Under the pieces are notes generated by a model, which searched no databases, was not told the origin of the DNA, and saw only the letters and a list, made by a program, of their open reading frames with translations. A program made the position numbers and the translations under genes. A DNA stretch of 32,800 bases, taken from Ilumatobacteraceae bacterium. GTDB lineage: Bacteria > Actinomycetota > Acidimicrobiia > Acidimicrobiales > Ilumatobacteraceae. Numbering within the stretch: position 1 is the stretch's first letter; each line of letters begins with the position of its first letter. Positions 13,516 through 31,079 of this stretch are shown here, piece after piece. Where the stretch lies: positions 1-32,800 of the forward strand of contig JAJTEQ010000015.1 of assembly GCA_021298195.1 (NCBI GenBank), in the 5' to 3' direction.

Positions 13516-13574
13516 GCCGTCGCTGGCATCGAGTGTCGAGTCACCGCGGTGGCGTCGAGAGGTTCGGAGTTCCG

Positions 13575-15235: not shown

Positions 15236-16635
15236 CCGACGTCGTTCGTGCGGCATGCCTGTGGGACGACCTCGACCCGACCAGCGAAACGTCCGACGAG
15301 TTCCATACGTCCGCCGGATCGTCGGACCCGGGCGATGTCTCCGCCGACGTGGTCATCGTCGGGGCCGGTTTCACCGGTCTGTGGACCGCCCATTATCTGA
15401 ACCAGCTCGATCCCTCGTCACGGATCGTCGTGCTGGAGAGTCGGCGGGTCGGCTTCGGTGCGAGTGGGCGCAACGGCGGTTGGAGCTCGGCGTTGCTTCC
15501 GATGTCATTGGCCGCGTTGGTCCGGGACCACGGACGAGAAGCGGCCCTCGCGTTCGACCGCGCGATGAACGCCTCGGTCGACGAGATCTGCGCGCGAGCC
15601 CGAGGTATGGGTCTCGGCCGGCAGATCGCCAAAGGCGGTTACGTGCAGGTCGCCCGAACGCGGCCTCAATGGGATCGTCTTCGCGACGCGGTCACCGAGG
15701 CCCGCTCCTTCGGCATCACCGAGGATGATCTGCGCGTTCTGGACGTGGAGCAGACCTCGACCCTGATCGATGTCACGAACACCCTTGGTTCGGTCTTCAC
15801 ACCCCACTGCGCCGCGATACAACCAGGCTCGTTGGTGCGGGCCCTGGCCGCCGACCTTCGAGCCCGAGGCGTTCGGATTCTCGAGGGAGTGACCGTTCTT
15901 TCCATCGAACCCGGAAGGATCGTCACCGATCGAGGCCCGATGAACGCCCCGGTGAGCGTGCGCGCGACCGAAGCTTTCACCGTTCGATTGCGGCATCATC
16001 ACCGAAACGTGTTGCCGCTGTACTCGCTGATGATCGCCACCGAGCCCATAAGCGGCGATCTTCTCGACTCCCTGATCTCGGCGAGCCGACCGACGTTCAA
16101 TGACGCCCGCCATCTGATCGTCTACGGACAGCGCACCGCCGACGACCGGATCGCATTCGGCGGTCGCGGTGCCCCGTATCACTTCGGATCCCGCATCGAT
16201 CCGCGTTTCGACACTCACGACGGCATGGTTCGACATCTGACGACCGCCCTGCGCGAGATGTTTCCCGCTCTCTCCGATGTGTCGTTCACCCACCACTGGG
16301 GTGGACCTCTTGGGGCACACCGCGACTGGAACTGTTCGGTCCTCTTCGACCCGCGGACCGGAATGGCGAGCGCGGGAGGTTACGTCGGCGACGGCGTCAC
16401 GACCTCGAACCTTGCCGGACGGACCTTGGCCCATCTCATCACCGGACGGGAGACGGATCTGACCCGACTTCCGTGGGTCGGACACCAGAGTCGCACCTGG
16501 GAGCCCGAACCCGTTCGCTGGCTGGCGGTCAACGCGATGGCCAAGCTCGCCGCCTTGGCCGACGAACGCGAACGGACGACTGGTCGCCGCGCGCGCACCA
16601 TCGAACGGATCCTCGACCTCGTTCTGGGTCACTGA
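15232..16635 (+). CDS. FAD-dependent amine/amino acid oxidase (DAO family)
   Basis: Flavoprotein oxidase of 467 aa. After about 38 residues comes the FAD-binding Rossmann motif DVVIVGAGFTGLWTA, then VLESRRVGFGASGRNGGW, which is typical of the DAO/PuuB group (gamma-glutamylputrescine oxidase-like and related amine oxidases). The C-terminal GGYVGDGVTTSNLAGRTLA closes the FAD site. Its ATG overlaps the panC stop (ATGA, 15232-15235), so it is translated with panBC. A role in supplying a pantothenate precursor, for example amine oxidation towards beta-alanine, is an inference from that position. It converges on the ProA-like gene with a 7-bp gap. Confidence 0.85.
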   Translation: MTDVVRAACLWDDLDPTSETSDEFHTSAGSSDPGDVSADVVIVGAGFTGLWTAHYLNQLDPSSRIVVLESRRVGFGASGRNGGWSSALLPMSLAALVRDHGREAALAFDRAMNASVDEICARARGMGLGRQIAKGGYVQVARTRPQWDRLRDAVTEARSFGITEDDLRVLDVEQTSTLIDVTNTLGSVFTPHCAAIQPGSLVRALAADLRARGVRILEGVTVLSIEPGRIVTDRGPMNAPVSVRATEAFTVRLRHHHRNVLPLYSLMIATEPISGDLLDSLISASRPTFNDARHLIVYGQRTADDRIAFGGRGAPYHFGSRIDPRFDTHDGMVRHLTTALREMFPALSDVSFTHHWGGPLGAHRDWNCSVLFDPRTGMASAGGYVGDGVTTSNLAGRTLAHLITGRETDLTRLPWVGHQSRTWEPEPVRWLAVNAMAKLAALADERERTTGRRARTIERILDLVLGH

Positions 16636-16642
16636 GCACCCG

Positions 16643-18136
16643 TCAGCGACGTTGAGTCGCGTCCGGGGTGGACGCGTGGTACCGAACGCTGTACACACCG
16701 TCACCGGAGAGGATCCCGCCGCGAGCGAACAATCGTCCCTCCTCCCAATTCGACAGCCCGAGCTCCGGCCGTCGCAACGCGTACTGTCCATCGACCCAAC
16801 GCGTGAAGCCGTCGCCCGCGAACGGGGCGTCGCAACGATCGACGATCGCACGGGTTGCGGCTCCGTCACCGGTGAGAGCGCTCACGATGAAGCGGGGACT
16901 GTGTTCGTTGAACAAATCGATCGCCTCGTCGACATCCTCGACCACCAGGATCGAGACCTCGGGTGCATCGTCCCATTCCCATTCGATCGCCGAGTCGGAG
17001 AACTCGCCCTCCAGAACGTCGACCGTCTCGGGGACCGACGACATCTGGGCCCGTGCCGAATCGCCGAGTAGATGCACCGTGGCCCGGACGTTGCGTCGTC
17101 GCGCCGCGTCGACGATCCCCTCGAGTGACTCCCGCAGTGTCCGATCGACGTTCCCGACGAGCACGATCACGTTCACCGTGTTGCACACCTTCCGATCGAG
17201 CGATGCGGACACGCAGTCACGAACGCGACCTTCGGGGGCGTCCCCCCGCACGATCATCCATGCCCCACCGGTCCCGTGAAGGCTCACCGGAACCCCCGAC
17301 TGTCGGGCCACGGCGCCCAATTGAGCGACCGCTGGTCCGCTCCCCCGGGCCACGGCCAACGAGACACGAGGATCGCTGAACAATGCATGGCCTCCGGAAC
17401 GATCGGGTTCGTCGATCAACTCCACCGCACCCGCGGGAAGTCCGGCATCGAGCAGTGACGGACGCACGGCCAACTCCATGATCGCTCGCGCCGTGCCCAG
17501 GGCGTCACTCCCGATCCGCATGACCGTCGAGTTGCCCCCGCGAAGGACGCCGGTGGCATCGGCGAAGACGTTGGGGCGACCCTCGAAGACGAACGCGACG
17601 ACACCCAATGGTGCGCGCACGACATCGACGTTCCACGCACCGTGGTCGACGCGCTCGAGACTCGCACCGACCACGCTCTGCATTCCTCGCCAGAGCTCCA
17701 AACCGTCGATCATGCTCGCGCGCATCTTGTCGTCGATCACCAAACGTCCGACCGCTCGCCCTCTGCCGCGGGCATCGGTGACGTCGATCTCGTTGGCACG
17801 GGCGATCCGACCGAAGATCGCATCATCACGAAGTCGGTCGGCGAACAGTCGGTAGAAATCGGACACTCTGTCCTGATCGAGGTTGCGCATCACTTCGAAT
17901 GCCTTCCGCGCCCGAGCGACCGATCCTTCCACGGAGGCGGCCACCGCCGACGTCACGTGAATGAGAGTGCCGTCGGTCTGCAGCACCAGCAAACGGTCGC
18001 CGGGACGGAAAACACGGGCCAGATCCTCGTCGACGCGGACCCAATGGCGTCCGCCGAACGGGATCACCAGGCCGGGTTCCAGGGACGTCAACTCCCCCGT
18101 CCGCGTCCCGTTCGAGGACTCGTCATCCGTCACCAT
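16643..18136 (-). CDS. ProA-like aldehyde dehydrogenase with N-terminal extension
   Basis: Protein of 497 aa related to glutamate-5-semialdehyde dehydrogenase (gamma-glutamyl phosphate reductase, usually about 415-430 aa). Matches to ProA are PLGVVAFVFEGRPNVFADA (177-195), ARGSGPAVAQL, the catalytic cysteine in DRKVCNTVN (C318), and DGQYALRRPELGLS with RLFARGGI. The first 70 or so residues are extra and beta-rich (PFGGRHWVRV, PGDRLLVLQTDGTLIHV). No proB is adjacent, so this may be a paralogue with another semialdehyde or acyl-phosphate substrate rather than the proline enzyme. A leaderless promoter precedes the ATG at 18136. Confidence 0.75.
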   Translation of the reverse strand: MVTDDESSNGTRTGELTSLEPGLVIPFGGRHWVRVDEDLARVFRPGDRLLVLQTDGTLIHVTSAVAASVEGSVARARKAFEVMRNLDQDRVSDFYRLFADRLRDDAIFGRIARANEIDVTDARGRGRAVGRLVIDDKMRASMIDGLELWRGMQSVVGASLERVDHGAWNVDVVRAPLGVVAFVFEGRPNVFADATGVLRGGNSTVMRIGSDALGTARAIMELAVRPSLLDAGLPAGAVELIDEPDRSGGHALFSDPRVSLAVARGSGPAVAQLGAVARQSGVPVSLHGTGGAWMIVRGDAPEGRVRDCVSASLDRKVCNTVNVIVLVGNVDRTLRESLEGIVDAARRRNVRATVHLLGDSARAQMSSVPETVDVLEGEFSDSAIEWEWDDAPEVSILVVEDVDEAIDLFNEHSPRFIVSALTGDGAATRAIVDRCDAPFAGDGFTRWVDGQYALRRPELGLSNWEEGRLFARGGILSGDGVYSVRYHASTPDATQRR

Positions 18137-18142
18137 GCGAAC

Positions 18143-18148
18143 AGACTA
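18143..18148 (-). promoter_or_regulatory. Leaderless -10 element of the ProA-like gene
   Basis: On the minus strand TAGTCT, then GTTCGC (6 nt), then ATG at 18136. The divergent gene at 18206 has the identical 6-nt spacer GTTCGC. Confidence 0.6.
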
Positions 18149-18193
18149 GACATCGGCCCGGCTGTGCCCGCCGATGGACGCGCCCCTCTGGTC

Positions 18194-18199
18194 TACTGT
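18194..18199 (+). promoter_or_regulatory. Leaderless -10 element of the metallo-hydrolase gene
   Basis: TACTGT followed by GTTCGC (6 nt) and ATG at 18206; it decides the start of the metallo-beta-lactamase fold gene, since no Shine-Dalgarno sequence is present. Confidence 0.6.
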
Positions 18200-18205
18200 G
18201 TTCGC

Positions 18206-18916
18206 ATGGACGATCGCTTCTACTTTCGGCAATTGCTCTCGGGTCGCGACTTCGCCGCCGGGGATCCCTTGGCTCGCCAGATGGTGAACTTCGTGTACCT
18301 CATCGGCGATCGTTCGACGTCAGAGTGCGTGGTGGTCGACCCCGCGTACGGCATCGACGAACTGGTGGACCTCATCGAAGCCGATGGCATGAAGCTGGTG
18401 GGTGCGTTGGCGTCGCATTATCACCCCGACCACATCGGCGGTTCCATGATGAATTACCGGATCGAGGGGATCGCCCGATTGCTCGAGAGAGTCGACGTGC
18501 CGATTCACGTGAACGAGCACGAGATTCCGTGGGTGACCCGCACCACCGGCGTCAGCGAGACGAATCTCGTGTCGCACGCTTCGCACGACACGGTGAAGGT
18601 GGGCGGCGTCGACATCGAGTTGATGCACACTCCGGGCCACACTCCGGGCTCCCAGTGCTTCCACGTCGGCGGATGCCTGGTGTCCGGGGACACCTTGTTC
18701 CTCGATGGTTGCGGCCGAACCGACCTACCGGGCAGTGATCCCGCGGACATGTTCGAGAGCCTTCGTCGACTCGACAGCCTTCCGAGCAACACGGTGATCT
18801 ATCCGGGACATCGCTATTCGAACGAGCCGCACGAAGAGTTGGAGTCGGTGCGTCGGCACAACTTCGTGCTGAAGCCGATGGACAAAGAACAATGGATGAC
18901 GATTTTCGCGGGATGA
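18206..18916 (+). CDS. Metallo-beta-lactamase fold hydrolase (glyoxalase II/ETHE1-like)
   Basis: Cytoplasmic zinc hydrolase of 236 aa. The metal-binding signature is SHYHPDHIGG (HxHxDH), followed by the third ligand histidine in TPGHTPGSQCF, the bridging aspartate in LVSGDTLF, and the final histidine in YPGHRYS. GRTDLPGSDPADM is typical of glyoxalase II or persulfide dioxygenase-like members. It probably hydrolyses thioesters or oxidises persulfides; the sequence does not decide. It ends exactly where the convergent TauE gene ends (18916/18917), without any spacer. The leaderless -10 supports the ATG. Confidence 0.87.
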   Translation: MDDRFYFRQLLSGRDFAAGDPLARQMVNFVYLIGDRSTSECVVVDPAYGIDELVDLIEADGMKLVGALASHYHPDHIGGSMMNYRIEGIARLLERVDVPIHVNEHEIPWVTRTTGVSETNLVSHASHDTVKVGGVDIELMHTPGHTPGSQCFHVGGCLVSGDTLFLDGCGRTDLPGSDPADMFESLRRLDSLPSNTVIYPGHRYSNEPHEELESVRRHNFVLKPMDKEQWMTIFAG

Positions 18917-19704: not shown

Positions 19705-19721
19705 TTGACAAAATGTAAACT
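19705..19721 (+). promoter_or_regulatory. Shared operator/promoter site 1 (TTGACA-N3-TGTAAACT)
   Basis: The 17-bp sequence TTGACAAAATGTAAACT is an imperfect palindrome (TTGACA against TGTAAA) and occurs again, with only the central AAA changed to TTT, at 27432-27448. Its last six bases TAAACT have the form of a -10 element, so a bound protein would block RNA polymerase. From there the transcript would begin near 19728, leaving a short leader with GGGGA before the ATG at 19757. A repressor of the TetR, GntR or similar class is the likely reader; none is encoded in the window. Confidence 0.65.
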
Positions 19722-19756: not shown

Positions 19757-21016
19757 ATGAGGCCGACGGACCGTGGAGTTCGTATCGATGCCCCGCGCTT
19801 GCGCGCCCGTCTCGATGACCTCGCCGAGATCTCCCCGATCCCCGGAGGTGGCTCGTGTCGTTTGGCCCTCACCGACGAGGACCGGGCCGGTCGCGACGTG
19901 GTGAGGTCGTGGATGATCGATCTGGGACTACGGGTGCAGGTCGACGCCATCGGGAACATCTTCGGGACGTGGGATTGTGCGCCCGGCGCTCCGGTCATGA
20001 CCGGCAGTCACATCGACACCGTCAGAACCGGCGGTCGGTACGACGGGAACTACGGCGTGCTCGCCGGACTCGAGGTGATCGAGACGTTGATGACCGCCGG
20101 CATGACCCCGTCGCGTCCGCTCAGTGTCGCGGTCTTCACGAACGAGGAAGGCGCGCGATTCCAGCCCGACATGTTGGGTTCACTCGCGTACGTCGGCGGT
20201 GTGAGCCTCGAAGCCGCCCTCGACATACGCGCGATCGACGGGGCGCGCTTGGGCGACGAGTTGACGCGGATCGGATACGACGGCCCGGCGCCGGTTCCCG
20301 GCCCGGCGCCGCACGCCTTCATCGAATTGCACATCGAGCAGGGACCGTTGCTGGAGGCCGAGGGCGTCACCATCGGTGCGGTCGACGGCGTGCAGGGTAT
20401 TTCCTGGCAGGAAGTCACCATCACCGGACAGAGCAATCACGCCGGGACGACCCCCATGCGCCTGCGCCACGATCCGGCCTACGTGGCGGCGTCGATTGCG
20501 GTCTTCCTGCGCGATCTGGCGACGGAGATGGGTGGCAACCAGGTGTGCACCGTCGGCAAGATCGACCTCGCCCCGAACCTGATCAACGTGGTGCCCGCCA
20601 CGGCCACCGTCACCCTCGATGTTCGCAACACCGACGAGGAGCTGTTGCAGATCGCCGAACGTCGGGTCTCGGATTTCCTCGACGACGTCGCGGCGAGAGA
20701 AGGCGTGAAGATCGAACGTCGACGACTCGCCCGCTTCGAACCCGTGGTCTTCGACCCCGAGCTCGTCGATCGAGTGGCCAAGATCGCCGGCGCTCACGGA
20801 CACGACGTGAAGCGGATGCCGTCGGGTGCCGGTCACGACGCCCAGATGCTGGCCCGCGTGTGCCCGAGCGCGATGATCTTCGTTCCCTCGCATCTCGGCA
20901 TCAGCCACAACGCCGCCGAGCACACCGACGACGAGGACCTGGTCGCGGGAGCGAACGTGCTCCTCGACATCATGTGGGAATTGGCCCAACGAGAACCGAA
21001 CGAGGAAAGCTCATGA
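19757..21016 (+). CDS. M20-family N-carbamoyl-L-amino acid hydrolase / allantoate amidohydrolase
   Basis: Zinc-dependent amidase of 419 aa that releases the carbamoyl group from N-carbamoyl amino acids, ureidopropionate or allantoate-type substrates. All metal ligands are visible: H85 in GSHIDTV, D96 in GGRYDGNYG, E130-E131 in FTNEEGARF, H192 in ELHIEQGP, and H384 in GISHNAAEHT. GISWQEVTITGQSNHAGTTPM is the dimerisation-domain signature of this subfamily. The ATG at 19757 follows GGGGACGAAGC; the upstream TTG at 19721 overlaps the promoter and was rejected. It is the first gene of catabolic operon A and overlaps the next gene by 4 bp. Substrate choice among L-carbamoylase, beta-ureidopropionase and allantoate hydrolase is open. 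Confidence 0.9.
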   Translation: MRPTDRGVRIDAPRLRARLDDLAEISPIPGGGSCRLALTDEDRAGRDVVRSWMIDLGLRVQVDAIGNIFGTWDCAPGAPVMTGSHIDTVRTGGRYDGNYGVLAGLEVIETLMTAGMTPSRPLSVAVFTNEEGARFQPDMLGSLAYVGGVSLEAALDIRAIDGARLGDELTRIGYDGPAPVPGPAPHAFIELHIEQGPLLEAEGVTIGAVDGVQGISWQEVTITGQSNHAGTTPMRLRHDPAYVAASIAVFLRDLATEMGGNQVCTVGKIDLAPNLINVVPATATVTLDVRNTDEELLQIAERRVSDFLDDVAAREGVKIERRRLARFEPVVFDPELVDRVAKIAGAHGHDVKRMPSGAGHDAQMLARVCPSAMIFVPSHLGISHNAAEHTDDEDLVAGANVLLDIMWELAQREPNEESS

Positions 21017-21978
21017 CCACGACTCGAACCTCCCGTACGATCGTCGTGGGCGCCGCCCAACTCGGGCCCGTTCAACGCACCGATGATCGCGCCTCGGTGG
21101 TCGCTCGCATGATCTCCTTGATGCGCGAAGCGTCGAGCCGTGGGTGCGATCTGGTCGTCTTCCCCGAATTGGCGCTGACCACGTTCTTCCCCCGCTGGTT
21201 TCTCGAGGACATCTCCGAAGCCGATCATTGGTACGAAACGTCGATGCCCGGTCCGCAGACCCAACCTCTCTTCGACGAGGCACAGCGTCTCGGCATCGGC
21301 TTCTCGCTCGGCTACGCCGAGCTGACGCCGGTCGATGCGGACGGAACGAGGCACCGCTACAACACCCAGATCCTCGTCGACCACACGGGTTCGATCGTCG
21401 CCAAGTATCACAAGGTGCACATTCCGGGACACGCCGGACACGAACCGAACCGACCTTTTCAACACGCCGAGCGCTACTACTTCGAACCCGGTCCCGAAGG
21501 CTTCGGTGTCTGGCGGGCCTTCGGCGGACTCGTCGGGATGATGACGTGCAACGACCGCCGCTGGCCCGAGTCGTACCGAGAGATGGGTCTCCAGGGCGTG
21601 GAGATGATCCTGTGCGGCTACAACACCCCGATCCACTACGTACCCGATCCCAGTCAGGACATCCTCCAAGGGTTCCACAATGCCCTCGTCATGCAGGCCG
21701 GTGCGTACCAGAACGGCACGTGGGTCGTCGGCGTGGCCAAAGGTGGCATGGAGGAAGGCGTCGATTCGCTCGGTCAATCGTGCATCATCGCTCCGAGCGG
21801 TCAGATCGTGGCCCAGGCGTTGACCACCGGGGACGAACTGATCGTGGCCTCGTGCGATCTCGACTGGTGCAAGCGCTACAAGGACACCTTGTTCGATTTC
21901 GACAAGTACCGACGACCCGAGGTCTACACCCGCATCACGTCCCAGCGTGGAGCGATCATCGCGCCGGAGAATGGTTGA
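21013..21978 (+). CDS. N-carbamoyl-D-amino acid hydrolase (nitrilase superfamily)
   Basis: Nitrilase-fold amidase of 321 aa. The catalytic triad is clear: E52 in FPELALTTFFPRW, K134 in KYHKVHIPGH and C179 in MMTCNDRRWPE. The segment around E52, with PGHAGHEPNRPFQHAERYYF and GYNTPIHYVP, closely follows the Agrobacterium D-carbamoylase as I remember it, so D-specific decarbamoylation to a D-amino acid, CO2 and ammonia is the best call. Related ureidopropionases are the alternative. The ATG overlaps the stop of the M20 gene (ATGA) and GAGGAAAG serves as ribosome binding site. Having L-type and D-type carbamoyl hydrolases side by side suggests a chiral or racemising ureido intermediate. Confidence 0.9.
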   Translation: MTTTRTSRTIVVGAAQLGPVQRTDDRASVVARMISLMREASSRGCDLVVFPELALTTFFPRWFLEDISEADHWYETSMPGPQTQPLFDEAQRLGIGFSLGYAELTPVDADGTRHRYNTQILVDHTGSIVAKYHKVHIPGHAGHEPNRPFQHAERYYFEPGPEGFGVWRAFGGLVGMMTCNDRRWPESYREMGLQGVEMILCGYNTPIHYVPDPSQDILQGFHNALVMQAGAYQNGTWVVGVAKGGMEEGVDSLGQSCIIAPSGQIVAQALTTGDELIVASCDLDWCKRYKDTLFDFDKYRRPEVYTRITSQRGAIIAPENG

Positions 21979-21981
21979 TAC

Positions 21982-24573
21982 ATGAGCACCGAATCGATCC
22001 AGCGTGTATCACTGCGAGTCAACGGCCGCGAGGTCGACGTACGTGGTGATCATCCGCACCTCCTCGCCGCTCTCCGCGAGGAGCTCGACATCACGTCACC
22101 CAAGGACGGTTGTTCTCCGTCGGGACAGTGCGGTTGTTGCACCGTCATGATCGATGGCAAACCGGTCGTCAGTTGCCAACAATCCTTGGAGAAGGTGGCC
22201 GGGAAGTCGATCGTGACGCTCGAGGGCGTCGACGACGCCGAGCGTGATCGTTACGCCGAGTCGTTCGCCGCCTGTGGTGGGCTGCAGTGCGGCTTTTGCA
22301 TCCCGGGCATCATCATGAGGGCCAAGGGTCAAGTCGACAAGAAGGGTGATCGACTGACCAAGAGCGACATGGCGAAGCATCTCGGCGCCAATCTCTGTCG
22401 CTGCACCGGATACGTCAAGGTGCTCGACGCCATCGAAGCCGTCGCCCTGAACCGTCCCCTCGTCGCGACCCAACCCGGGGGCGTCGGCTCGTCGGGCATG
22501 AAGTACGAGGCTCGTGATCTGGCGCTCGGTGATCGCGGGTACGTGGACGACATTCGAATCCCCGGGATGCTCCATGCCGCCCTCCATCTGACGGCGCACG
22601 CGCGCGCCGACGTCGTCTCCATCGACACCACCGCCGCCGAAGCGTCTCCGGGTGTCGTGGCGGTCTTCACCGCCGCCGATATTCCGGCCGAATTGAAGGT
22701 CGGGCTCATCCACAAGGATTGGCCGGTCATGATCCCGGTGGGCGGACGAACCAGTTACGCCGGCGACGTATTGGCGGTCGTAGTCGCCGACAGTCGTCAG
22801 GCCGCCCGAGCCGCCACCGAACTCGTGCGCGTCCAGTACGTCGCGCATCGACCGATCACCGACGCGCGAGCCGCCATCGCATCCTCCGAGATCGCCGTGT
22901 GGGGAACCGACGACAACGTGCTCAGCGTCAGCCGTTATGCCCGCGGTGACGTCGACGCCGCCCTCGCCGCTTCCGTCCACGTGGTGACCGAGACGTTCGA
23001 GACCCAACGAATCGAACACGCCTTCCTGGAGCCCGAGAGCACCGTCGCCGTTCCCGCCGGAGTCGGCGACGGTCGATCGCTCCATGTGTATTCGGGGGGT
23101 CAAGGCGTCTGGGACGACCGAAACGACATCGCTCGCGTTTTGGGGGTCGATCGTTCTCGGGTCACGGTCGAGTTGGTCACCAACGGTGGCGCGTTCGGCG
23201 GTAAAGAGGACATGAGCAACCAAGCGCACACCGCGTTGGCCGCCTGGCTGCTGGACCGACCGGTGAAATGCACGTTGTCGCGCGAGGAATCCTTCCTGAT
23301 GCACGCCAAACGACACCCGATCCGCATGGAGTACACCGCCGGCTGTGGCGCCGACGGACTCCTCACGGCTCTCCGAGTGCGCGCGGTGGGCGACAGTGGG
23401 GCCTATGCCAGCGTCGGTATGAAGGTTCTGGAGCGAATGGCCGGGCACGCCAGTGGCCCGTACCGGGTCGGCAGCATCGACGTCGAGGCCATCGCGGCCC
23501 GCACGAACAATCCGGTCTGCGGAGCCTTCCGTGGTTTCGGGGCCAATCAGGCCCAGTTTGCGATGGAGGGCGTGCTCGACCGCCTCGCCGATCGCGTGGG
23601 CATCGACGGTTGGACCATACGCAAGAGGAACGTCATTCGGCCCGGGCACGTCTGGGGACCGGGTCAGATCATGGACGACGGCTGCCTCGGAGCCGAAAAA
23701 TGTCTGGACGTCATCAAGCCTCACTACGACGCGGCGCGGCTCGCCGGACGTGCCGTCGGTCTCGGGCTCGGTCTGAAGAACAGCGGACTCGGTAACGGCT
23801 TCAAAGAGGTCAGTGGCGCGGTCATCCACTTCCGTGCCGACGGCGTCATCGAAGTTCGACACGGTTGGACGGAAATGGGACAAGGCATCAACACGGTCGC
23901 GTTGCAGGTCGCCGTCGAGGAACTCGGAATCGATCCCGAGGACGTTCGGGTGATCGTCGACACCACCCGGGAACTCGGGTTCGGACAAACGACCGGTTCA
24001 CGAGGAACCTTGATGGGCGCCGGCGCGGTGAAGGCCGCCTGCGAGGCCGCTCGGGCCGATGGTTGTCGTGTCGGGGTCGACTACCACGGCGAGTATCGGG
24101 TCGACTGGACCCAGAAACTCGGCGAAGTCGAGAACCCCACCATTCACTCCACGTTCGGCTACGCGGCCCAATTGGTGTCGATCGACCCGGAGAACGGGTC
24201 CATCGTGGAGGTGGTGGCGGCACACGACGTCGGTCGCGCCGTGAACCCGACGTTGTGCGAAGGTCAGATCGAGGGAAGTGTGCACATGGGACTCGGATAC
24301 GCCCTGACCGAGGACTTCCCCTCGGACCCGGACACTGGTTTCCCCACGGCCAAGACGCTGCGCTCACTCGGCATTCTGCGGGCCAAGGACGTGCCCCCGA
24401 TCACGGTCATCCTCGTGGAATCTCCCGAGCCGAACGCGCCGTACGGCATCAAAGGTGTCGGCGAGATCGGACTCGTGCCCACGGCCGGAGCAGTCGCCGA
24501 AGCACTGCGTCAGTACGACGGTTCCTGGCGTCGGCGCCTCCCGATGCGGCGCGTGGACGGAGACGACGAGTGA
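21982..24573 (+). CDS. Fused molybdenum hydroxylase, XdhD / selenium-dependent xanthine dehydrogenase-like
   Basis: One 863-aa chain joins an iron-sulfur subunit to a molybdopterin subunit. The first [2Fe-2S] cluster is in GCSPSGQCGCCTV (C44, C50, C53, with C65), the second in CGGLQCGFCIPG and LCRCTGY (C103, C106, C139, C141). The Mo domain from about residue 170 has GGQGVWDDR, GGAFGGKED, GAFRGFGANQAQ, EMGQGINTVA, QTTGSRG and the catalytic glutamate E828 in GIKGVGEIG. No FAD domain is present. This layout, including the five-residue gap between the first two cysteines, fits the E. coli XdhD / Se-dependent xanthine dehydrogenase family. It probably hydroxylates a purine or similar N-heterocycle. 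Four bases separate it from the D-carbamoylase gene. Confidence 0.85.
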   Translation: MSTESIQRVSLRVNGREVDVRGDHPHLLAALREELDITSPKDGCSPSGQCGCCTVMIDGKPVVSCQQSLEKVAGKSIVTLEGVDDAERDRYAESFAACGGLQCGFCIPGIIMRAKGQVDKKGDRLTKSDMAKHLGANLCRCTGYVKVLDAIEAVALNRPLVATQPGGVGSSGMKYEARDLALGDRGYVDDIRIPGMLHAALHLTAHARADVVSIDTTAAEASPGVVAVFTAADIPAELKVGLIHKDWPVMIPVGGRTSYAGDVLAVVVADSRQAARAATELVRVQYVAHRPITDARAAIASSEIAVWGTDDNVLSVSRYARGDVDAALAASVHVVTETFETQRIEHAFLEPESTVAVPAGVGDGRSLHVYSGGQGVWDDRNDIARVLGVDRSRVTVELVTNGGAFGGKEDMSNQAHTALAAWLLDRPVKCTLSREESFLMHAKRHPIRMEYTAGCGADGLLTALRVRAVGDSGAYASVGMKVLERMAGHASGPYRVGSIDVEAIAARTNNPVCGAFRGFGANQAQFAMEGVLDRLADRVGIDGWTIRKRNVIRPGHVWGPGQIMDDGCLGAEKCLDVIKPHYDAARLAGRAVGLGLGLKNSGLGNGFKEVSGAVIHFRADGVIEVRHGWTEMGQGINTVALQVAVEELGIDPEDVRVIVDTTRELGFGQTTGSRGTLMGAGAVKAACEAARADGCRVGVDYHGEYRVDWTQKLGEVENPTIHSTFGYAAQLVSIDPENGSIVEVVAAHDVGRAVNPTLCEGQIEGSVHMGLGYALTEDFPSDPDTGFPTAKTLRSLGILRAKDVPPITVILVESPEPNAPYGIKGVGEIGLVPTAGAVAEALRQYDGSWRRRLPMRRVDGDDE

Positions 24574-25589
24574 CCACCACCCCGGGTCTGGTGTGTGCTC
24601 ATCATCACCTGTACTCGTCCCTGGCCCGCGGGATGCCCGCTCCCGCGAAGCAGCCACGATCCTTTCTGGACATCCTCGAACAGATCTGGTGGCGCCTCGA
24701 TGTCGCCCTCGATGCCGACACCATTCGTTGGTCCGCGATGCTCGGGGCCGTCGAGGCTCTCACGGCCGGGACCACGGGCATCGTCGACCACCACGAGAGT
24801 CCATCCTTCATCGACGGATCGCTCGACATCATCGCCGAGGCCTGTGCGACGGTCGGGGTGCGGGTCAATTGTTCCTACGGGGTCACCGACCGCCACGGTC
24901 GTGACGGCGGCCAGCGTGGCCTGCGAGAGAACGAACGCTTCCTGCGTGCCGGTGGCCGCGGGATGGTGGGCGTGCACGCCGCGTTCACCTGCTCCGACGA
25001 TCTTCTTCGTTCGGCGTCGGACCTGGCCACGGAGCTGGGAGTGGGCGTGCACATCCATGTCGGAGAGGGCCCGGATGATCGCGAGGCGGCGCGTCGGCTG
25101 GAAAATCTCGCCGCGGACGAATGGCTGCTCGTGCATTGCGTGGAACTCGATCGGCCATTGAAAGGAACCATCGCCCACAATCCCCGCTCGAACATGAACA
25201 ACGCGGTCGGCTACGCCGCACCGACCGAACGGGAGAACATCGTCGTTCTCGGCACCGACGGAATCGGCGCCGACATGCTCGAGGAGATGCGCCTCGCCTA
25301 CGTGGCACTGCGCGCCCACGACGTCACGGCGAGCCCCGAAACTCCGTGGTCCTGGCTCGAGAACGGCTTTTCGTTTTTCCCCGAGTGTCGTGACGATGTC
25401 GTGGAATGGAGCTACGACCACGCCGACAGTCCCTGGCACGTCGCGTTCACCCCCGGTGTTCGGGCGATCAACGTCACCTCCGCCGAAGGTGAGCAGTTGC
25501 TCGTGGACGGCCGTCCCACTCGGGTGGACATCGACGAGATCCGCGCCAAGGCCGCCGAGTCCGCCCAGCGATTGTTCGCGAAGTTCTAG
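24570..25589 (+). CDS. SsnA-like aminohydrolase lacking the N-terminal beta domain
   Basis: Amidohydrolase-superfamily TIM barrel of 339 aa. It resembles E. coli SsnA (about 440 aa) in [28 protein letters not shown] and the [14 protein letters not shown] to [13 protein letters not shown] segment. Metal and catalytic residues are present: H11 and H13 (AHHHLY), H163, E166 (HVGE), H189 and D230. The protein begins only six residues before the first HxH, so the usual 55 or so residues of N-terminal beta-sandwich are absent and the barrel is also shortened around residues 185-200. The GTG start overlaps the preceding stop (GTGA), and no other in-frame start can extend it without a stop, since upstream bases are used by the hydroxylase gene. 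Likely deaminates or opens a heterocycle; exact substrate unknown. Confidence 0.8.
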
Positions 25590-25606
25590 AGAGGAACACC
25601 ACGACC

Positions 25607-26614
25607 ATGAACCAACCCGTTGCCATTTATCTCCAGGACGCTCACCGGATCCGCGAAGGCATGGAGTTCGCCCGCTACGCCGAGAGCAAAGGTTTCGATG
25701 CCGTGTGGCAGGCCGAGAGTCGTCTGGTACGCGAAGCGACGGTGCCCATGGCCGCTTTCGCCAGCGTCACCGAGCGCATCAAGGTCGGAAGTGGAGTCGT
25801 CGACTGCTGGAGTCGCAACCCCGCTCGGTTGGCCGCCACTTTCTCCACCCTCGACGACCTGGCTCCGGGTCGCGTCATTCTCGGAATCGGCGCCTGGTGG
25901 GATCCCTTGGCTCAGAAGGTCGGCATCGACCGCAGTCGACCGCTTCGGGTGATGCGCGAGATCGTGACCGTCGTGCGGGGTCTGCTCAACAACGAAACCG
26001 TGACGTTCGACGGCGACTACGTGCATCTCGACGGCGTCGAACTCGACTACGTGTACCAAGAACGTGCGCCGAAGAACGTGCCGATCTACATCGGTGCGAC
26101 CGGCATGCAGATGATGGAACTCACCGGTGAGATCGCCGACGGAGCCGTTCTCAACTACCTGGTTTCGCCCGGCTACAACGATCAGGCCCTGGAAGCGCTC
26201 GACAAGGGAGCGCGCAAAGCCGGGCGCACCCTGGACGACATCGATCGTCCGCAGTTGGTGGTGTGCAGCGTCCACGAGGATCGGCAGACCGCGCTCGACA
26301 TGGCTCGTCTCATGGTGACCCAATACCTCGGGCAGCAGCCGCACATCATGAAAGCGTCAGGTGTCCCCCAGTCATTGTTGGACGAGGTCGGCAACGTGCT
26401 CACGTGGCCCGCCACTCACGAGCAGGTGGTGGCGGCGAGCAAGTTGGTTCCCGACGAGATCGTCAACATGCTCACGGCCAGTGGTACTCCGGCCGAGGCT
26501 CGCGCCAAGGTGAAGCACTACATCGACCACGGCTGTACCTGCCCGATCCTCTACCCACTCGGAGACGTCAAGGCGATGATCGACGCCTTCGCCGGGTGGG
26601 ACGGAAAAGCCTGA
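25607..26614 (+). CDS. Luciferase-like (LLM) F420-dependent oxidoreductase
   Basis: TIM-barrel oxidoreductase of 335 aa in the luciferase-like monooxygenase superfamily, closest by pattern to F420-dependent methylene-H4MPT reductase-type proteins: [61 protein letters not shown] and [21 protein letters not shown]. Cofactor may be F420 or FMN. It is the last gene of operon A, 17 bp after the SsnA-like gene, with AGAGGAAC as ribosome binding site. By position it should act in the same catabolic route. RutA, which opens the uracil ring, belongs to the same superfamily, so a ring-opening role is a reasonable hypothesis. Confidence 0.88.
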
Positions 26615-26643
26615 CCGGATTCCCGGAGCCGAGCCTCGACAGT

Positions 26644-27438
26644 TCACCGTTCGGCGTAGGCCTCATCGGTCGCCGATCCAACCGCGTGCCACACCACGGA
26701 GACGGCCACCATCATCGGCCCGACGAGGGTCGCCACTTGCGCACCAACGGGCACGTCGGGGCTCAAGGCCACTCCGGCGACCACCGACCAGATCCACACC
26801 GTCATCGAGGCCAGGTTCCAGAACCTCCAGGACACCGCGCGGACCGGGTGGGCGAACTCGATGTCGGTGAGCGTGAGCACGGACAACACCACGATCACCA
26901 CGCTGCTGGACCATTGCGAGCCGCCCAGCAACCACAAGGTGGGAATCACCATGTTCCACGCCGACGGAAAGCCCCGGAACCAACCGTCGTCGCTCATCTG
27001 GTCGGTCCGACTGAACCAGAGCGACGAACTCAGCAACATCACCGCCACGACCAACATGCCGTAACGATCGTGGGGAACCAGTCCGAACTGCCACAGGAAC
27101 GCGGCCGGCACCAGGACGCACGTGACGAAATCGATGACCAGATCGAGCACGTACCCGTCGAAGCGGGTGGTCGCCTCATCGGGGAGCAGGCGTCGGGCCA
27201 AGGGCCCGTCGATTCCGTCGATCAACTGGGCCACCAGCAACCAGATGATGGCCAAACGCGCCGAACCGTCGAGGACCGCCACCAAGGCGGCCATACCCAC
27301 CAACGCCCCCGACGCCGTGAAGGCGTGCAAGGCCAACGAGAAGTCACGTTGAACCTCACGGGGGCGACCGAACCGGGACACGAGTGCTGACGCTACGTCC
27401 CGACCAGCCCGAGAAGACGGATCGACACCGGTTGACAT
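26644..27438 (-). CDS. pcs: Phosphatidylcholine synthase-like CDP-alcohol phosphatidyltransferase
   Basis: Membrane enzyme of 264 aa with about eight hydrophobic segments. The CDP-alcohol motif is complete: D77-G78-x2-A81-R82, then 12 residues, then G95-x3-D99-x3-D103. The 12-residue spacing, together with VIDFVTCVLVPAAF and GFPSAWNMV, points to bacterial phosphatidylcholine synthase, which joins CDP-diacylglycerol and choline, rather than PgsA or PssA, which have 8. The ATG at 27438 lies inside operator site 2 and has AGGAG 9 nt upstream; an earlier in-frame start at 27597 would overlap the divergent xanthine dehydrogenase gene and was rejected. It converges on the LLM gene with a 29-bp gap. 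Confidence 0.72.
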   Translation of the reverse strand: MSTGVDPSSRAGRDVASALVSRFGRPREVQRDFSLALHAFTASGALVGMAALVAVLDGSARLAIIWLLVAQLIDGIDGPLARRLLPDEATTRFDGYVLDLVIDFVTCVLVPAAFLWQFGLVPHDRYGMLVVAVMLLSSSLWFSRTDQMSDDGWFRGFPSAWNMVIPTLWLLGGSQWSSSVVIVVLSVLTLTDIEFAHPVRAVSWRFWNLASMTVWIWSVVAGVALSPDVPVGAQVATLVGPMMVAVSVVWHAVGSATDEAYAER

Positions 27439-27448
27439 TTTGTAAACT
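27432..27448 (+). promoter_or_regulatory. Shared operator/promoter site 2 (TTGACA-N3-TGTAAACT)
   Basis: TTGACATTTTGTAAACT matches site 1 at 19705-19721 in 14 of 17 positions, with differences only in the central three bases. TAAACT (27443-27448) is the -10, 6 nt before the GTG at 27455, so operon B would be transcribed as a leaderless mRNA. On the other strand the same bases contain the pcs start codon and part of its leader. Confidence 0.65.
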
Positions 27449-27454
27449 CCTGAC

Positions 27455-28303
27455 GTGCCCGTCCTCCGACCACGCTCCGTCGACCATCTCCTCGAATTGC
27501 TCGCCGACACCCCCGACGTGTCAGTTCTGGCCGGCGGCACCGACATGATGGTCGAGATCAATCTCCACGGTCGTCGACCCGGAACGGTCCTGCCCATCGG
27601 GTCTCTCGAGGAGTTGCGGGAATGGGAGCATCAGCGCCGAGCCGGCACGGTCACCATCGGTGCGGCGGTCCCCTACGCCGACATGGAGACCGGCGAACTC
27701 GCCGAACTGGTGCCGGCTCTCGCCCAAGCCGCCCGGACGGTCGGCTCGCCCCAAATTCGCGCGGCGGGCACCATCGGAGGGAACCTGGGAACCTGTTCGC
27801 CCGCCGGTGACATTCTTCCGGTCCTGTCGGCACTCGACGCGGTCATCCACGTTCTGCATCGCGATCATTCGCGTGACGTCCACTTTTCCGACTTCATGAC
27901 CGGCGTCAAGCGGAACTCCCTCCGGCCCGGTGAATTCGTCCACTCCGTCACCGTTCCGGTCACGCGAGGATGGCAGGGGTACGCCAAGGTCGGCACCCGC
28001 AACGCCATGGTGATCTCGACGGCCTCGGCCTGTCTCGTGCACGATGCCGTCGAGGGACACGTGGCGCTGGCTCTCGGAGCGGTCGCCCCGACCATCGTTC
28101 GCGCCTCGAGAGCCGAAGCCTGGTTGTCGAAACAGATCGACCTTCGGGGCTCGTTCAGCGTCTCCGTCGAGACCGCGCAGGAGTTCGGTCGCCGAGCGGC
28201 CAGCGAGACGAGCCCGATCTCTGACCATCGTTCCACTGCCGACTATCGCCGTCATGCGGTGTCGGTACTCGCTCGTCGTCTACTCGAAAGGTCCGCCGCA
28301 TGA
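27455..28303 (+). CDS. Xanthine dehydrogenase-family FAD-binding subunit
   Basis: FAD subunit of 282 aa (CoxM/PucC type) that passes electrons from the iron-sulfur subunit to the acceptor. FAD-binding motifs are VLAGGTDMMVEI near residue 25 and the second AGTIGGNLGTCSPAGD, followed by YAKVGTRNAMVIS. Length is normal. The GTG start is supported by the leaderless -10 in operator site 2 and by the absence of a better start. It is the first gene of operon B, and its TGA overlaps the next ATG (28300-28303). Together the three subunits form a classical (FAD, 2Fe-2S, Mo) hydroxylase, distinct from the fused enzyme in operon A. Confidence 0.92.
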   Translation: MPVLRPRSVDHLLELLADTPDVSVLAGGTDMMVEINLHGRRPGTVLPIGSLEELREWEHQRRAGTVTIGAAVPYADMETGELAELVPALAQAARTVGSPQIRAAGTIGGNLGTCSPAGDILPVLSALDAVIHVLHRDHSRDVHFSDFMTGVKRNSLRPGEFVHSVTVPVTRGWQGYAKVGTRNAMVISTASACLVHDAVEGHVALALGAVAPTIVRASRAEAWLSKQIDLRGSFSVSVETAQEFGRRAASETSPISDHRSTADYRRHAVSVLARRLLERSAA

Positions 28304-28806
28304 CCCGCCACTCCGACTCCGCGAACGAGTCGTACCGACTCAACGTCAACGGTTCCGACCGCGAGGTCACCGATGCGTGGGTGGGCGAGAGCCTCTTGTA
28401 CGTCCTGCGCGAACGTCTGGGATTGCCGGGCGCCAAGGGAGCCTGCGAGCAGGGCGAGTGCGGAAGCTGCACGGTCATCATGGACGACCGTGCGGTGTGT
28501 TCGTGCTTGGTCCTGGCCGCGTCGGCGACCGAATCACGGATCCTGACGGTCGAGAGCCTCGGGGACGACGGTCGACTCTCCGACGTCCAGCAAGCGTTTC
28601 TCGACGCCGGTGGTGTGCAGTGCGGATTCTGCACCCCGGGTTTCATCGTCGCCGTTCATCATCTCCTCGATCGGAACCCGCAACCCGATGACGAGGAGAT
28701 CAAAGAAGCATTGTCGGGCAACATCTGCCGTTGCACCGGATACGGTCGCATCCTCGAAGCCGTCAAGGTCGTCGCTCGCGGCCGGACGCACGGTGGTGCG
28801 GCATGA
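28300..28806 (+). CDS. Xanthine dehydrogenase-family [2Fe-2S] subunit
   Basis: Electron-transfer subunit of 168 aa (CoxS/PucE type). The plant-ferredoxin-type cluster is held by C49, C54, C57 and C69 (GACEQGECGSCTV), and the second cluster by VQCGFCTPG and ICRCTGY. The spacing CEQGEC (four residues) is the common one, unlike the five-residue gap in the fused operon A enzyme. It overlaps its neighbours at both ends by 4 bp (ATGA), as expected for stoichiometric synthesis of the complex. Confidence 0.93.
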   Translation: MTRHSDSANESYRLNVNGSDREVTDAWVGESLLYVLRERLGLPGAKGACEQGECGSCTVIMDDRAVCSCLVLAASATESRILTVESLGDDGRLSDVQQAFLDAGGVQCGFCTPGFIVAVHHLLDRNPQPDDEEIKEALSGNICRCTGYGRILEAVKVVARGRTHGGAA

Positions 28807-31079
28807 TCCTGGCCACCGGACTCGACACCCGATACGGAGCCCTGGGCTCCAACGCGAGCCGTCCCGACGGTGCCGCCAAGGTGCAGGGAGGCTTCGCCTT
28901 CTCCAGCGACATGTGGGCCGAGAACATGTTGTGGGGAGCGACCCTGCGCAGCCCGCACCCGCACGCTCGACTCGTGGACATCGACGTCTCCGACGCCTGG
29001 AAGATCACGGGCGTCGAATGCATCGTGACCGCTGACGACGTGCCCGGCGAGCCGAACTACGGCTTGATCATGCAGGACCAACCGGTGTTCGCCCGAGTGG
29101 GCGACGTCGTTCGCTATCTCGGAGAGCCGATCCTGGCGGTCGCCGCCGATCATCCGGAGACCTGCCGTCGAGCTTTGGCGGCGGTGAAAGTCACCTACGA
29201 GATACTCGAGCCGGTCACCGATGCCGAACGTTGCATCGACGGAAGCGCTCCCCCGATCCATCCCCTCGGGAACGTGTTCCGCCACCAGCGGATTCTCACG
29301 GGTGACCAGACAATCGTCGGTGAGATCCAGGTCGAGGGCACGTACGAGATCGGAATGCAGGATCAGGCCTTTCTCGGTCTCGAGGCGGCATTGGCGGTGC
29401 CGGATAGCGGTGGTGACGGAGTCGAGCTGTACATCGCGACCCAGTGGCTCCACGAGGATCGCAAACAGATCGCCGCCTGCCTCGCCATGCCCGAGGACAA
29501 GGTGCGTCTCGTCCTGGGCGGTGTGGGCGGAGCTTTCGGTGCGCGCGAGGACATCAGCCTCCAGGTGCACACCTGCCTACTGGCCTTGCGCACCGGACGT
29601 CCCGTTCGTATCGCGTACAGCCGCGAGGAGAGTTTCTACGGACACGTCCATCGTCATCCGGCCACGATCTGGATGCGTCATCACGCCGACGCGAGCGGAC
29701 GCATTCTGCGAATCGAATCACGGATGGTCTTCGACGGCGGGGCGTATTGCAGCACCTCGCCCGCGGTGTTGATCAACGCGATCACGCACGCCCAAGGTCC
29801 GTACAAATGCGACAACGCCACCGTCGACGGATGGGCGTTGCGCACCAACAATCCCCCGTGCGGCGCGATGCGCGGGTTCGGCGTCGTGCAGGCCTGTTTC
29901 GCTCACGAGAGCCAAATGGACAAGCTGGCCGCCGCCACCGGTTTGTCGCCGGTCGAGATCCGCCTTCGCAACGCCATGGAGACCGGAGATCGTCTGATCA
30001 CCGGTCAGATCATGGACAGCGTGGCGCCGGTGGCCCGGTGCATCACCGAAACCGATCGCATTCCGTTGCCGGCTCCCCTGCCCGAGAATGCCCACGAACT
30101 CCTGATTCCCGGTGGAACCGGACTCACGGCGCTGCCGTCGAACATCCGTCGCGGCATCGGCTGGGGCGTGAGCATCAAGAATCTCATGTATTCCGAGGGC
30201 TTCGACGACTTCTCGACCGCGCGTTGTCGGATCGCCGACGGAGCCGTTCACGTGAAGTTCGCCACGGCCGAGGTCGGGCAAGGCTTCGTGATGCTGGCCC
30301 AGCAGATCGCCCGCACGGTGCTCGGCGTCGATGACGTCTTCCTCGATCCGATCGACACCCAGGTGGGCTCGGCCGGCTCCACGTCGGCCAGTCGACAGAC
30401 CTGGATGAGCGGGGGCGCCGTCGATGCGGCGTGCCGCGCCGTGCGTGACGAACTACTCGATCGGGTGGCGGCCGATCGCGGACTGGTGCGCGCCGAACTG
30501 CGCGTCGAAGGAACGAACATCGTCGACTCGCTGACCGGGACCACGATTGCCGTCGGCGAGGTGATCGGAGAGTACGACATCGACCACACCGTCGAGTACC
30601 GCCACCCGGCGACCGAGGACCTCGACGAAGACGGACACGGAAACTGCCATGTTGCCTTTGCCTTCGTCGCTCACCGTGCCGTGGTCGACGTCGACCCGGA
30701 CCTGGGCCTCGTCAAGGTCGTACAGATCGCCACCGCCCAGGACGTGGGCCGGGTGCTCAATCCCCTCTCCGTCCAGGGTCAGGTGGAGGGCGGAATCGCC
30801 CAGGGCCTCGGACTGGCCGTGATGGAGGAGATCATCGTCACGGACGGAAAGGTCCGTAATCCCAGTTTCACGGACTACCTGTTACCGACTTTCCTCGACG
30901 CCCCGACGGTCGACATGATCCTCATCGAGGAGCACGAACCCAAGTCCCCCTTGGGCGCCAAAGGCGTCGGTGAGCCCCCGTGCGTCTCGGTCACACCGGC
31001 CATCGCGAACGCCATTCGCGACGCGGTCGGCCGTGAGTTGCCCCGGGTGCCCATTCGACCCTACGACATCTGCATCTGA
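28803..31079 (+). CDS. Xanthine dehydrogenase-family molybdopterin-binding subunit
   Basis: Catalytic subunit of 758 aa (CoxL/PucD type). It has RPDGAAKVQGGFAFSSDM at the start, TQWLHEDRK, GGVGGAFGAREDI, PCGAMRGFGVVQA, AEVGQGFVMLA, and the catalytic glutamate E724 in GAKGVGEPP. These bind the molybdopterin cytosine dinucleotide and hydroxylate an aromatic N-heterocycle or aldehyde. The AYRxxxR signature of CO dehydrogenase is absent, so CO oxidation is unlikely. PucD-like xanthine oxidation is my best guess. The ATG at 28803 overlaps the stop of the small subunit. A hairpin covers its stop codon (31075-31096). Confidence 0.9.
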   Translation: MILATGLDTRYGALGSNASRPDGAAKVQGGFAFSSDMWAENMLWGATLRSPHPHARLVDIDVSDAWKITGVECIVTADDVPGEPNYGLIMQDQPVFARVGDVVRYLGEPILAVAADHPETCRRALAAVKVTYEILEPVTDAERCIDGSAPPIHPLGNVFRHQRILTGDQTIVGEIQVEGTYEIGMQDQAFLGLEAALAVPDSGGDGVELYIATQWLHEDRKQIAACLAMPEDKVRLVLGGVGGAFGAREDISLQVHTCLLALRTGRPVRIAYSREESFYGHVHRHPATIWMRHHADASGRILRIESRMVFDGGAYCSTSPAVLINAITHAQGPYKCDNATVDGWALRTNNPPCGAMRGFGVVQACFAHESQMDKLAAATGLSPVEIRLRNAMETGDRLITGQIMDSVAPVARCITETDRIPLPAPLPENAHELLIPGGTGLTALPSNIRRGIGWGVSIKNLMYSEGFDDFSTARCRIADGAVHVKFATAEVGQGFVMLAQQIARTVLGVDDVFLDPIDTQVGSAGSTSASRQTWMSGGAVDAACRAVRDELLDRVAADRGLVRAELRVEGTNIVDSLTGTTIAVGEVIGEYDIDHTVEYRHPATEDLDEDGHGNCHVAFAFVAHRAVVDVDPDLGLVKVVQIATAQDVGRVLNPLSVQGQVEGGIAQGLGLAVMEEIIVTDGKVRNPSFTDYLLPTFLDAPTVDMILIEEHEPKSPLGAKGVGEPPCVSVTPAIANAIRDAVGRELPRVPIRPYDICI

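Follow-up and report, generated by a model that had tools for sequence, protein, structure and literature searches.

Acidimicrobiia genes for the core of a probable reductive uric acid pathway of the F420 type

What is the function of a gene block that combines two molybdenum hydroxylases, two carbamoylases, a short SsnA-like amidohydrolase and an oxidoreductase of the luciferase-like monooxygenase (LLM) class? We address this question for a stretch of 32,800 nucleotides (hereafter, the window) from an Ilumatobacteraceae bacterium, which is one entire contig (C59) of a 2.39-Mb genome in 107 contigs. A preliminary description had recognised two operons, linked them with the E. coli neighbourhood ygeY-hyuA-ssnA-xdhD and with the breakdown of purines, and proposed hydroxylation, deamination and ring opening, followed by carbamoyl release. 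Family profile matches and solved relatives bear out the named genes and the two operons, with corrections to the start and length of SsnA and to two gene starts, and the kinship with the E. coli region holds, as do the LLM and the D-carbamoylase as added parts and an ending in which carbamoyl groups are released and an amino acid is left. The proposed order of steps, in turn, probably had the wrong direction, since homology and the exchange of the LLM with YgfK point to a reductive route, in which dehydroxylation and ring reduction would probably precede hydrolysis and SsnA would open the ring rather than deaminate it. Thus, we consider it probable that the window holds the central part of a reductive uric acid pathway of the F420 type, encoded by the following features:

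19705..19720, + strand: operator palindrome TTGACAAAATGTAAAC, 5' of operon A, between it and a divergent TauE-like gene
19757..21016, + strand: M20 family N-carbamoyl amino acid/beta-ureido hydrolase; ATG at 19757, alternative TTG at 19721
21013..21978, + strand: CN-hydrolase of the N-carbamoyl-D-amino-acid hydrolase type; ATG at 21013 overlaps the M20 stop
21982..24573, + strand: fused [2Fe-2S]/molybdopterin hydroxylase, XdhD-type, near TIGR03311
24570..25589, + strand: short SsnA-like amidohydrolase, N-terminal domain missing; overlaps the xdhD stop in GTGA
25607..26614, + strand: LLM-class F420-type oxidoreductase, a putative yanthine reductase standing in for YgfK
26644..27597, - strand: CDP-alcohol phosphatidyltransferase-like gene, splits the operon, thought to lie outside the pathway
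27432..27447, + strand: operator palindrome TTGACATTTTGTAAAC, 5' of operon B
27455..28303, + strand: xdhB, flavin adenine dinucleotide (FAD) subunit, the sole FAD subunit in the block, which may serve XdhD too
28300..28806, + strand: xdhC, [2Fe-2S] subunit
28803..31079, + strand: xdhA, molybdopterin subunit of xanthine dehydrogenase, over the pucD family cut-off

Operon A (M20 hydrolase, CN-hydrolase, fused hydroxylase, SsnA and LLM) and operon B (xdhB-xdhC-xdhA) lie on the + strand throughout, and adjacent genes within each overlap by 4 bases or are separated by gaps of 3 to 17 bases, a spacing like that of a translationally coupled operon. The corrected starts of the carbamoylase (21013) and xdhA (28803) each give a 4-base overlap with the preceding gene. 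In the profile search, XdhA scored 835.8 bits against the pucD cut-off of 783.65.

A reductive uric acid pathway has been reported for E. coli and C. difficile (Li et al., 2025, PMC12507026), and that paper describes YgfK as a working reductase and assigns ring opening to SsnA. The distribution of YgfK and the LLM carries our argument. Among 148 genomes of the order to which the window belongs, short SsnA occurs in 54, of which 38 have an LLM orthologue and 16 a short YgfK, so that each of the 54 has exactly one of the two; in the 94 genomes that lack short SsnA, the LLM was found once and YgfK never. A scan of named genome contigs yielded at least 583 relatives of the short SsnA, and among the loci of the best 80 (the named loci, in which genes were counted by tblastn) 44 contain the LLM and 23 contain YgfK, again never together, and 30 of these LLMs and 17 of these YgfKs start 0.9-1.4 kb after the ssnA start. 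Moreover, a quick tree of 93 SsnAs, 79 of them with a known partner, calls for at least five changes between LLM and YgfK, three of which are forced by well-supported branches. Since the LLM repeatedly and exclusively replaces a known ring reductase, the two most likely perform the same reaction, and we propose that the LLM is a replacement for the yanthine reductase YgfK. A gene adjoining SsnA in four loci was considered as a possible third reductase and was dropped, as it encodes a NUDIX protein (one locus checked).

The closest solved relatives of the LLM are the F420-dependent enzymes Mer, Fgd and Adf, with oxygenases ranking lower. Mer, the F420-dependent methylene-tetrahydromethanopterin (H4MPT) reductase, which transfers hydride from F420H2, is the closest relative that is both solved and named; at 176.6 bits against the Mer family cut-off of 276, the LLM is not Mer itself. 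The F420 biosynthesis gene cofD, the only one of its pathway scored, is present in 36 of 37 relatives, the window's own genome included. The LLM is hence predicted, from its relatives and the cofD of its host, to use F420 rather than flavin mononucleotide (FMN). YgfK was not found in the own genome, where the best TIGR03315 match is glutamate-synthase-like and covers only positions 439-836 (UacX was not searched for). The short YgfK of the 16 genomes corresponds to the N-terminal domain part; a cluster of 25 loci (c9) contains a short YgfK with a median length of 627 aa, and the two examples scanned (L055 and L103) comprise TIGR03315 positions 5-397 together with ferredoxin-like clusters. The FAD/NAD(P)H half is absent from them, so their electron donor is probably not NAD(P)H.

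The second pillar of the reading is SsnA, which follows xdhD directly and keeps its active-site signature. The window protein (339 aa) shares with E. coli SsnA the motifs WWRLDxALD, DHHxSP, RSNMNNxVGY and GTDGIGxDM as well as the metal-binding histidines and aspartate; it is 31% identical to E. coli SsnA and 32% identical to that of Cetobacterium, which are themselves 32% identical to each other. Its start aligns with approximately residue 56 of E. coli SsnA, such that the N-terminal domain (about 56 residues) is missing. SsnA starts at the same residue in all 32 neighbourhoods inspected, and because related loci have the same short form, it is not a frameshift of this contig. Upstream of the start, the frame is open for fewer than 45 codons in 59 of 112 loci, which leaves insufficient room for the missing domain; it is longer in 52, where it is arginine/proline-rich and reads as out-of-frame sequence, and it runs to the contig end in one. 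Full-length E. coli and Cetobacterium SsnA queries gave alignments beginning before residue 50 in 19 and 16 of 113 loci, respectively, never with both queries at one gene, and the six inspected were low-similarity run-ons. Hence, a frameshifted or mis-started SsnA could be ruled out. An AlphaFold2 model of the short protein is complete and of high confidence (pLDDT 94.0, pTM 0.92), and a Foldseek search with it retrieved longer deaminase-type amidohydrolases (best 1p1m, TMq 0.83). On this evidence, SsnA seems to have lost its N-terminal domain and is probably active. Two loci with a short SsnA also encode a second amidohydrolase on the other strand (L069, approximately 16705-18015; L088, approximately 16747-18030), which can be aligned with Cetobacterium SsnA along nearly its entire length (184-187 bits).

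With every substrate assigned by homology, the pathway may be pictured as follows. XdhABC would oxidise hypoxanthine and xanthine to uric acid, from which the fused XdhD-type enzyme, acting reductively and probably with XdhB as its FAD partner, would remove the 6-oxygen to give 2,8-dioxopurine (yanthine). The LLM, in the role of YgfK, would then pass hydride from F420H2 to the ring and dearomatise it, and the short SsnA would hydrolyse the reduced ring to ureidomethyl-hydantoin. A hydantoinase, here encoded in trans, would open the hydantoin to 2,3-diureidopropionate, and release of the carbamoyl groups of the 2-ureido group by the D-carbamoylase and of the 3-ureido group by the M20 enzyme would leave 2,3-diaminopropionate. 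The latter would be converted to pyruvate and ammonia by an enzyme of a co-regulated pair of pyridoxal phosphate (PLP) enzymes on contig C45, or by YgeX in some related loci.

The two carbamoylases match the need of the pathway for removal of two ureido groups. The M20 enzyme belongs to the hydantoinase/carbamoylase family TIGR01879 (391.7 bits against a cut-off of 204), and its relatives are of the N-carbamoyl-L-amino-acid/beta-ureidopropionase kind, including N-carbamoyl-beta-alanine amidohydrolase; it could thus remove the 3-ureido group. The closest solved relatives of the CN-hydrolase are N-carbamoyl-D-amino-acid hydrolases (8i99, E 1.6e-119, query residues 2-302), and a D-type enzyme would fit the D-configured product expected of a D-hydantoinase as well as the R configuration to which Percudani (PMC12990295) refers. 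The allotment of the two ureido groups to the two enzymes would follow from these relationships, and together the enzymes would stand in for YgeW/UacY and YgeY; the window's M20 enzyme and carbamoylase gave no blastp match to E. coli YgeW or YgeY at 1e-3 (the rest of the genome was not searched). The absence of hyuA and ygfK stated in the preliminary description stands for the window, while for hyuA it does not extend to the genome, as a D-hydantoinase/dihydropyrimidinase is encoded on contig C82 (534.6 bits against a cut-off of 393.25). Some related loci add steps that are absent from the window: LLM, SsnA, XdhD, YgeX and HyuA lie side by side in L056, and L111 has xanthine dehydrogenase (XDH), M20, CN-hydrolase, XdhD, SsnA, LLM, YgeX and HyuA. 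LLM, HyuA and SsnA occur together in L104. Uricase PF01014 was found in none of 37 genomes, compared with matches in 2 of 14 control genomes (the search did not extend to other urate oxidases or the allantoin route), and uricase-based urate oxidation was rejected on this ground. Two further ideas concerning XdhD were given up. Glu606 of the E. coli enzyme, a proposed specificity determinant, was dropped as a marker because it is not conserved. Strict selenium dependence is unsupported, since one genome (G038) has SsnA, XdhD and LLM and no selD over cut-off (best 52.3 bits); the own genome has selD at 323.6 bits.

The operons appear to be linked by a shared predicted operator. Without mismatch, the palindrome TTGACAWWWTGTAAAC occurs in the window only 5' of M20 and 5' of xdhB, where 0.01 occurrences would be expected by chance, and TTGACAWWWTGTAAA with at most one mismatch is found at three places in the whole genome (control, 0). 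The third place lies 5' of the PLP enzyme pair on C45, whose members are 65% and 45% homologues of a pair adjoining ssnA in other genera. We surveyed 24 genomes (15 of the genus and 9 others) using the reversed sequence as a control; as several of them show control matches at two mismatches, only places with zero or one mismatch were counted. The slightly wider TTDACAWWWTGTAAA matched exactly 25 times, in 14 of the 15 genus genomes and in none of the 9 others, and all matches lie directly 5' of M20 (14) or xdhB (11), whereas the reversed control gave none. The M20 sites are located in the gap to the divergent TauE-like gene, which could be regulated too. The second site, that of xdhB, is present in 12 of 12 loci in which the phosphatidyltransferase gene splits the operon and in none of 9 in which the operon is unsplit or differently ordered (four of these nine are outside the genus and also lack the M20 site). 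A site precedes the first PLP gene in all 14 genus genomes searched, with no mismatch in 11 and one in 3; the second gene of the pair was examined in the own genome only. Hence, operons A and B and the PLP pair would form a three-unit regulon, and the pair is the best candidate, by homology and predicted co-regulation, for the last, diaminopropionate-cleaving step in the genus. Weaker operator copies of the form TTGCCAAACTGTAAA were seen within operon A, 3' of ssnA and 5' of the LLM gene, at G008:C146:72266 (L198) and G010:C74:3771 (L199), and another such copy is listed at G004:C58:2735, where the neighbourhood was not read. In a genome of another family, a two-mismatch operator, TTTACAAACTGTCAA, lies about 100 bases 5' of xdhD (G040:C91:28731, L195), perhaps a hint of a regulator that predates the genus; in that genome the reversed control gave one match.

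The gene set is not confined to this contig, contrary to what would have spoken against the preliminary description. Using the hydroxylase as query, we screened 61 genomes and inspected 40 neighbourhoods; a close XdhD was not found in one of the 61 (G027). Within the genus, the order M20-CN-hydrolase-XdhD-SsnA-LLM-XdhB-XdhC-XdhA is preserved up to the limit of each contig or fetched stretch. Thirteen other genera of the family were sampled with one genome apiece: the order is kept in three (L036, L041 and L045), up to the contig end in a fourth (L042), and in a fifth (L043) with the LLM not detected. Elsewhere in the family, and in the wider order, the arrangement is partly altered, or just a subset of the genes was found close by. 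The grouping is thus more than chance, its order recurring through the genus and part of the family. The best 80 of the at least 583 SsnA relatives are mostly from Acidimicrobiia, among them the cultured Ilumatobacter nonamiensis, which is of the YgfK type (L093); a small number of records carry the labels Chloroflexi/Chloroflexota, Thermoanaerobaculia and Nitriliruptoraceae. The carriers form a widespread, mostly uncultured group of actinobacteria that probably degrade uric acid reductively, with an F420-type enzyme at the ring-reducing step. Of the neighbouring genes, a Bmp-type ABC transporter occurs in 34 of the 80 named loci and an 8-oxoguanine deaminase or relative in 26, two examples of the latter scoring over the family cut-off.

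Elsewhere in the window, panB, panC and a DAO-type amine oxidase gene (13533-16635) make up a unit that lies upstream of the block and is found again in the genus loci. A ProA-like dehydrogenase gene (16643-18136, - strand) overlaps an open reading frame for a metallo-beta-lactamase-fold protein on the opposite strand (17642-18916, + strand); as both recur in the genus loci, the second gene may start after the start of its longest open reading frame. A branched-chain-type ABC permease (2807-4171) has an extra N-terminal stretch resembling prealbumin-like/carboxypeptidase regulatory domains.

A number of observations weigh against a reductive uric acid pathway in the form proposed here. SsnA, which is not full length, reaches 231.4 bits where the curated TIGR03314 cut-off is 455.5, and the fused hydroxylase, at 820.1 bits, falls just below the TIGR03311 cut-off of 830.45; Glu606 of E. 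coli XdhD aligns with proline in 17 of 17 relatives, in a poorly aligned region of proteins only 24% identical. The later steps are covered unevenly: HyuA exceeds its cut-off in 22 of 37 relatives, is not among the operator places and is located in an apparent pyrimidine operon, and a canonical YgeX, the diaminopropionate ammonia-lyase, was not found over cut-off in the own genome (best 42.4 bits) and was found in just 1 of the 37 relatives. Of the 80 named loci, only 3 have HyuA near SsnA and 9 have YgeX; YgeW was seen in 4. As for the exchange of reductases, the orthologue line of 540 bits was set after the LLM scores had been seen to fall into one group from 544.6 upwards and another from 417.5 downwards, a more distant LLM of 394 bits occurs in one YgfK genome (G051), and YgfK was scored on only five candidates per genome, so that one could be missed. 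Neither reductase was seen in 13 of the 80 named loci, and in just 3 of these does less than 0.4 kb remain downstream; the SsnA tree offers only three supported independent pairs, with which a sign test (p 0.25) cannot reach significance, and Fisher values for the partition take no account of kinship among the genomes. Finally, outside the genus the M20 operator site was seen only in L053 among the loci checked, and it is absent from 10 of 23 loci with a readable M20 start, one of the 10 being cut by a contig end.

Three other explanations deserve consideration. The LLM might be an FMN- and O2-dependent ring-opening oxygenase in an oxidative pathway, similar to the action on uracil of RutA, an LLM-class flavoenzyme of pyrimidine degradation. 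The host is probably aerobic, with a COX15/CtaA gene in the window, which would suit such an enzyme; nevertheless, we regard it as improbable, given that the LLM exchanges with a reductase, that the solved proteins nearest to it are F420 enzymes, oxygenases coming further down the ranking, and that SsnA, along with HyuA and YgeX where they are present, suits a reduced intermediate. Unlikely, although deserving somewhat more weight, is the degradation of a different N-heterocycle (another hydroxylated purine, a pteridine or a pyrimidine) by the same succession of hydroxylase, ring reductase, ring hydrolase and carbamoylases. XdhD is only 24-26% identical to the XdhD of two classical clusters, Glu606 is not conserved, and the 8-oxoguanine deaminase neighbours could mean entry of an 8-oxopurine, whereas the SsnA signature, the exchange with YgfK, the YgeX and HyuA of some related loci and the pucD-type XDH in the block point to urate, yanthine and diaminopropionate.

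Hydroxylases of the XdhD family usually oxidise, and the direction is not fixed by the present data, so the operons could also be imagined to serve hydantoin or ureide salvage, with an oxidative XdhD, an F420-reducing LLM and no reduction of uric acid. We find this very hard to reconcile with a complete XdhABC for purine oxidation already in the block, the absence of uricase PF01014 and the role of YgfK, the alternative to the LLM, as a reductase (PMC12507026). Thus, the reductive uric acid pathway with an F420-type ring reductase remains our preferred explanation.

The E. coli pathway comprises xdhD-ygfM, ygfK, ssnA, hyuA, ygeW, ygeY and ygeX, and shares with the window the SsnA signature, a fused molybdenum/iron-sulfur hydroxylase, a ring reductase adjoining ssnA and ureido hydrolases, as well as HyuA and YgeX in some related loci. 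In contrast to E. coli, the LLM here takes the place of YgfK, the D-carbamoylase and the M20 carbamoylase those of YgeW/YqeA and YgeY, and a co-regulated PLP pair that of YgeX, while SsnA lacks its N-terminal domain and HyuA is encoded in trans. Hydrolysis rather than phosphorolysis of the 2-ureido group and a ring reductase other than YgfK are features shared with C. difficile (UacX, UacY) and with the D-aminoacylase-bearing cluster of a Cetobacterium plasmid; however, UacY is a D-aminoacylase-type amidohydrolase and UacX is PydA-like, whereas the window has a nitrilase-superfamily D-carbamoylase and an LLM of the F420 type. The plasmid in question, of Cetobacterium somerae (NZ_CP092520, 705 kb; L154), carries most of a classical urate cluster: dpaL, ygeY, a D-aminoacylase gene, ssnA, guaD, genes for FAD and XdhD-type subunits, and hydA.

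The pathway kind is hence known from anaerobes, and an F420-dependent yanthine reductase beside SsnA was already predicted for Chloroflexota (PMC12507026), which is the same idea of an LLM-class F420-type protein in place of YgfK/UacX. The network behind that prediction was built from IPR017700 and may not have included the short SsnA, given its score of 231 against 455.5 for TIGR03314; for clusters of the Chloroflexota type, the accessible part of the paper describes neither operon anatomy nor an operator and reports no count of exchanges. In the open-licence literature, we found no account of this gene set from Acidimicrobiia, nor of the short form of SsnA, an ending with a D-carbamoylase, the partition between LLM and YgfK or the three-unit regulon.

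Ring reduction by this enzyme class may not be restricted to purines. Contig C82 of the own genome (9660-14584, L148) encodes, in a row, a CN-hydrolase, a dihydropyrimidinase (TIGR02033), a methylmalonate-semialdehyde dehydrogenase and a second F420-type LLM (TIGR03842, 580.8 bits against a cut-off of 295.45). The row looks like a reductive pyrimidine operon with an LLM in place of dihydropyrimidine dehydrogenase, and since this second LLM stands where a uracil reductase would be expected, it fits a general class of ring reductases. We tentatively suggest, as a possibility rather than an expectation, that probably aerobic actinobacteria dearomatise urate with F420H2 instead of using uricase, in a process that would be redox-neutral from hypoxanthine (four electrons withdrawn by XDH, four returned by XdhD and the LLM), and that F420-type LLMs are general reductases of N-heteroaromatic rings.

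The exchange of LLM and YgfK allows a direct test of what an uncharacterised F420 family does and, if our reading is true, would offer a natural test of purine-ring reduction by F420 enzymes; the two-carbamoylase ending could be useful for urate-lowering enzymes. For the Acidimicrobiia themselves, it would mean that reductive urate breakdown, described as anaerobic (PMC12507026, PMC12990295), is widespread in the class.

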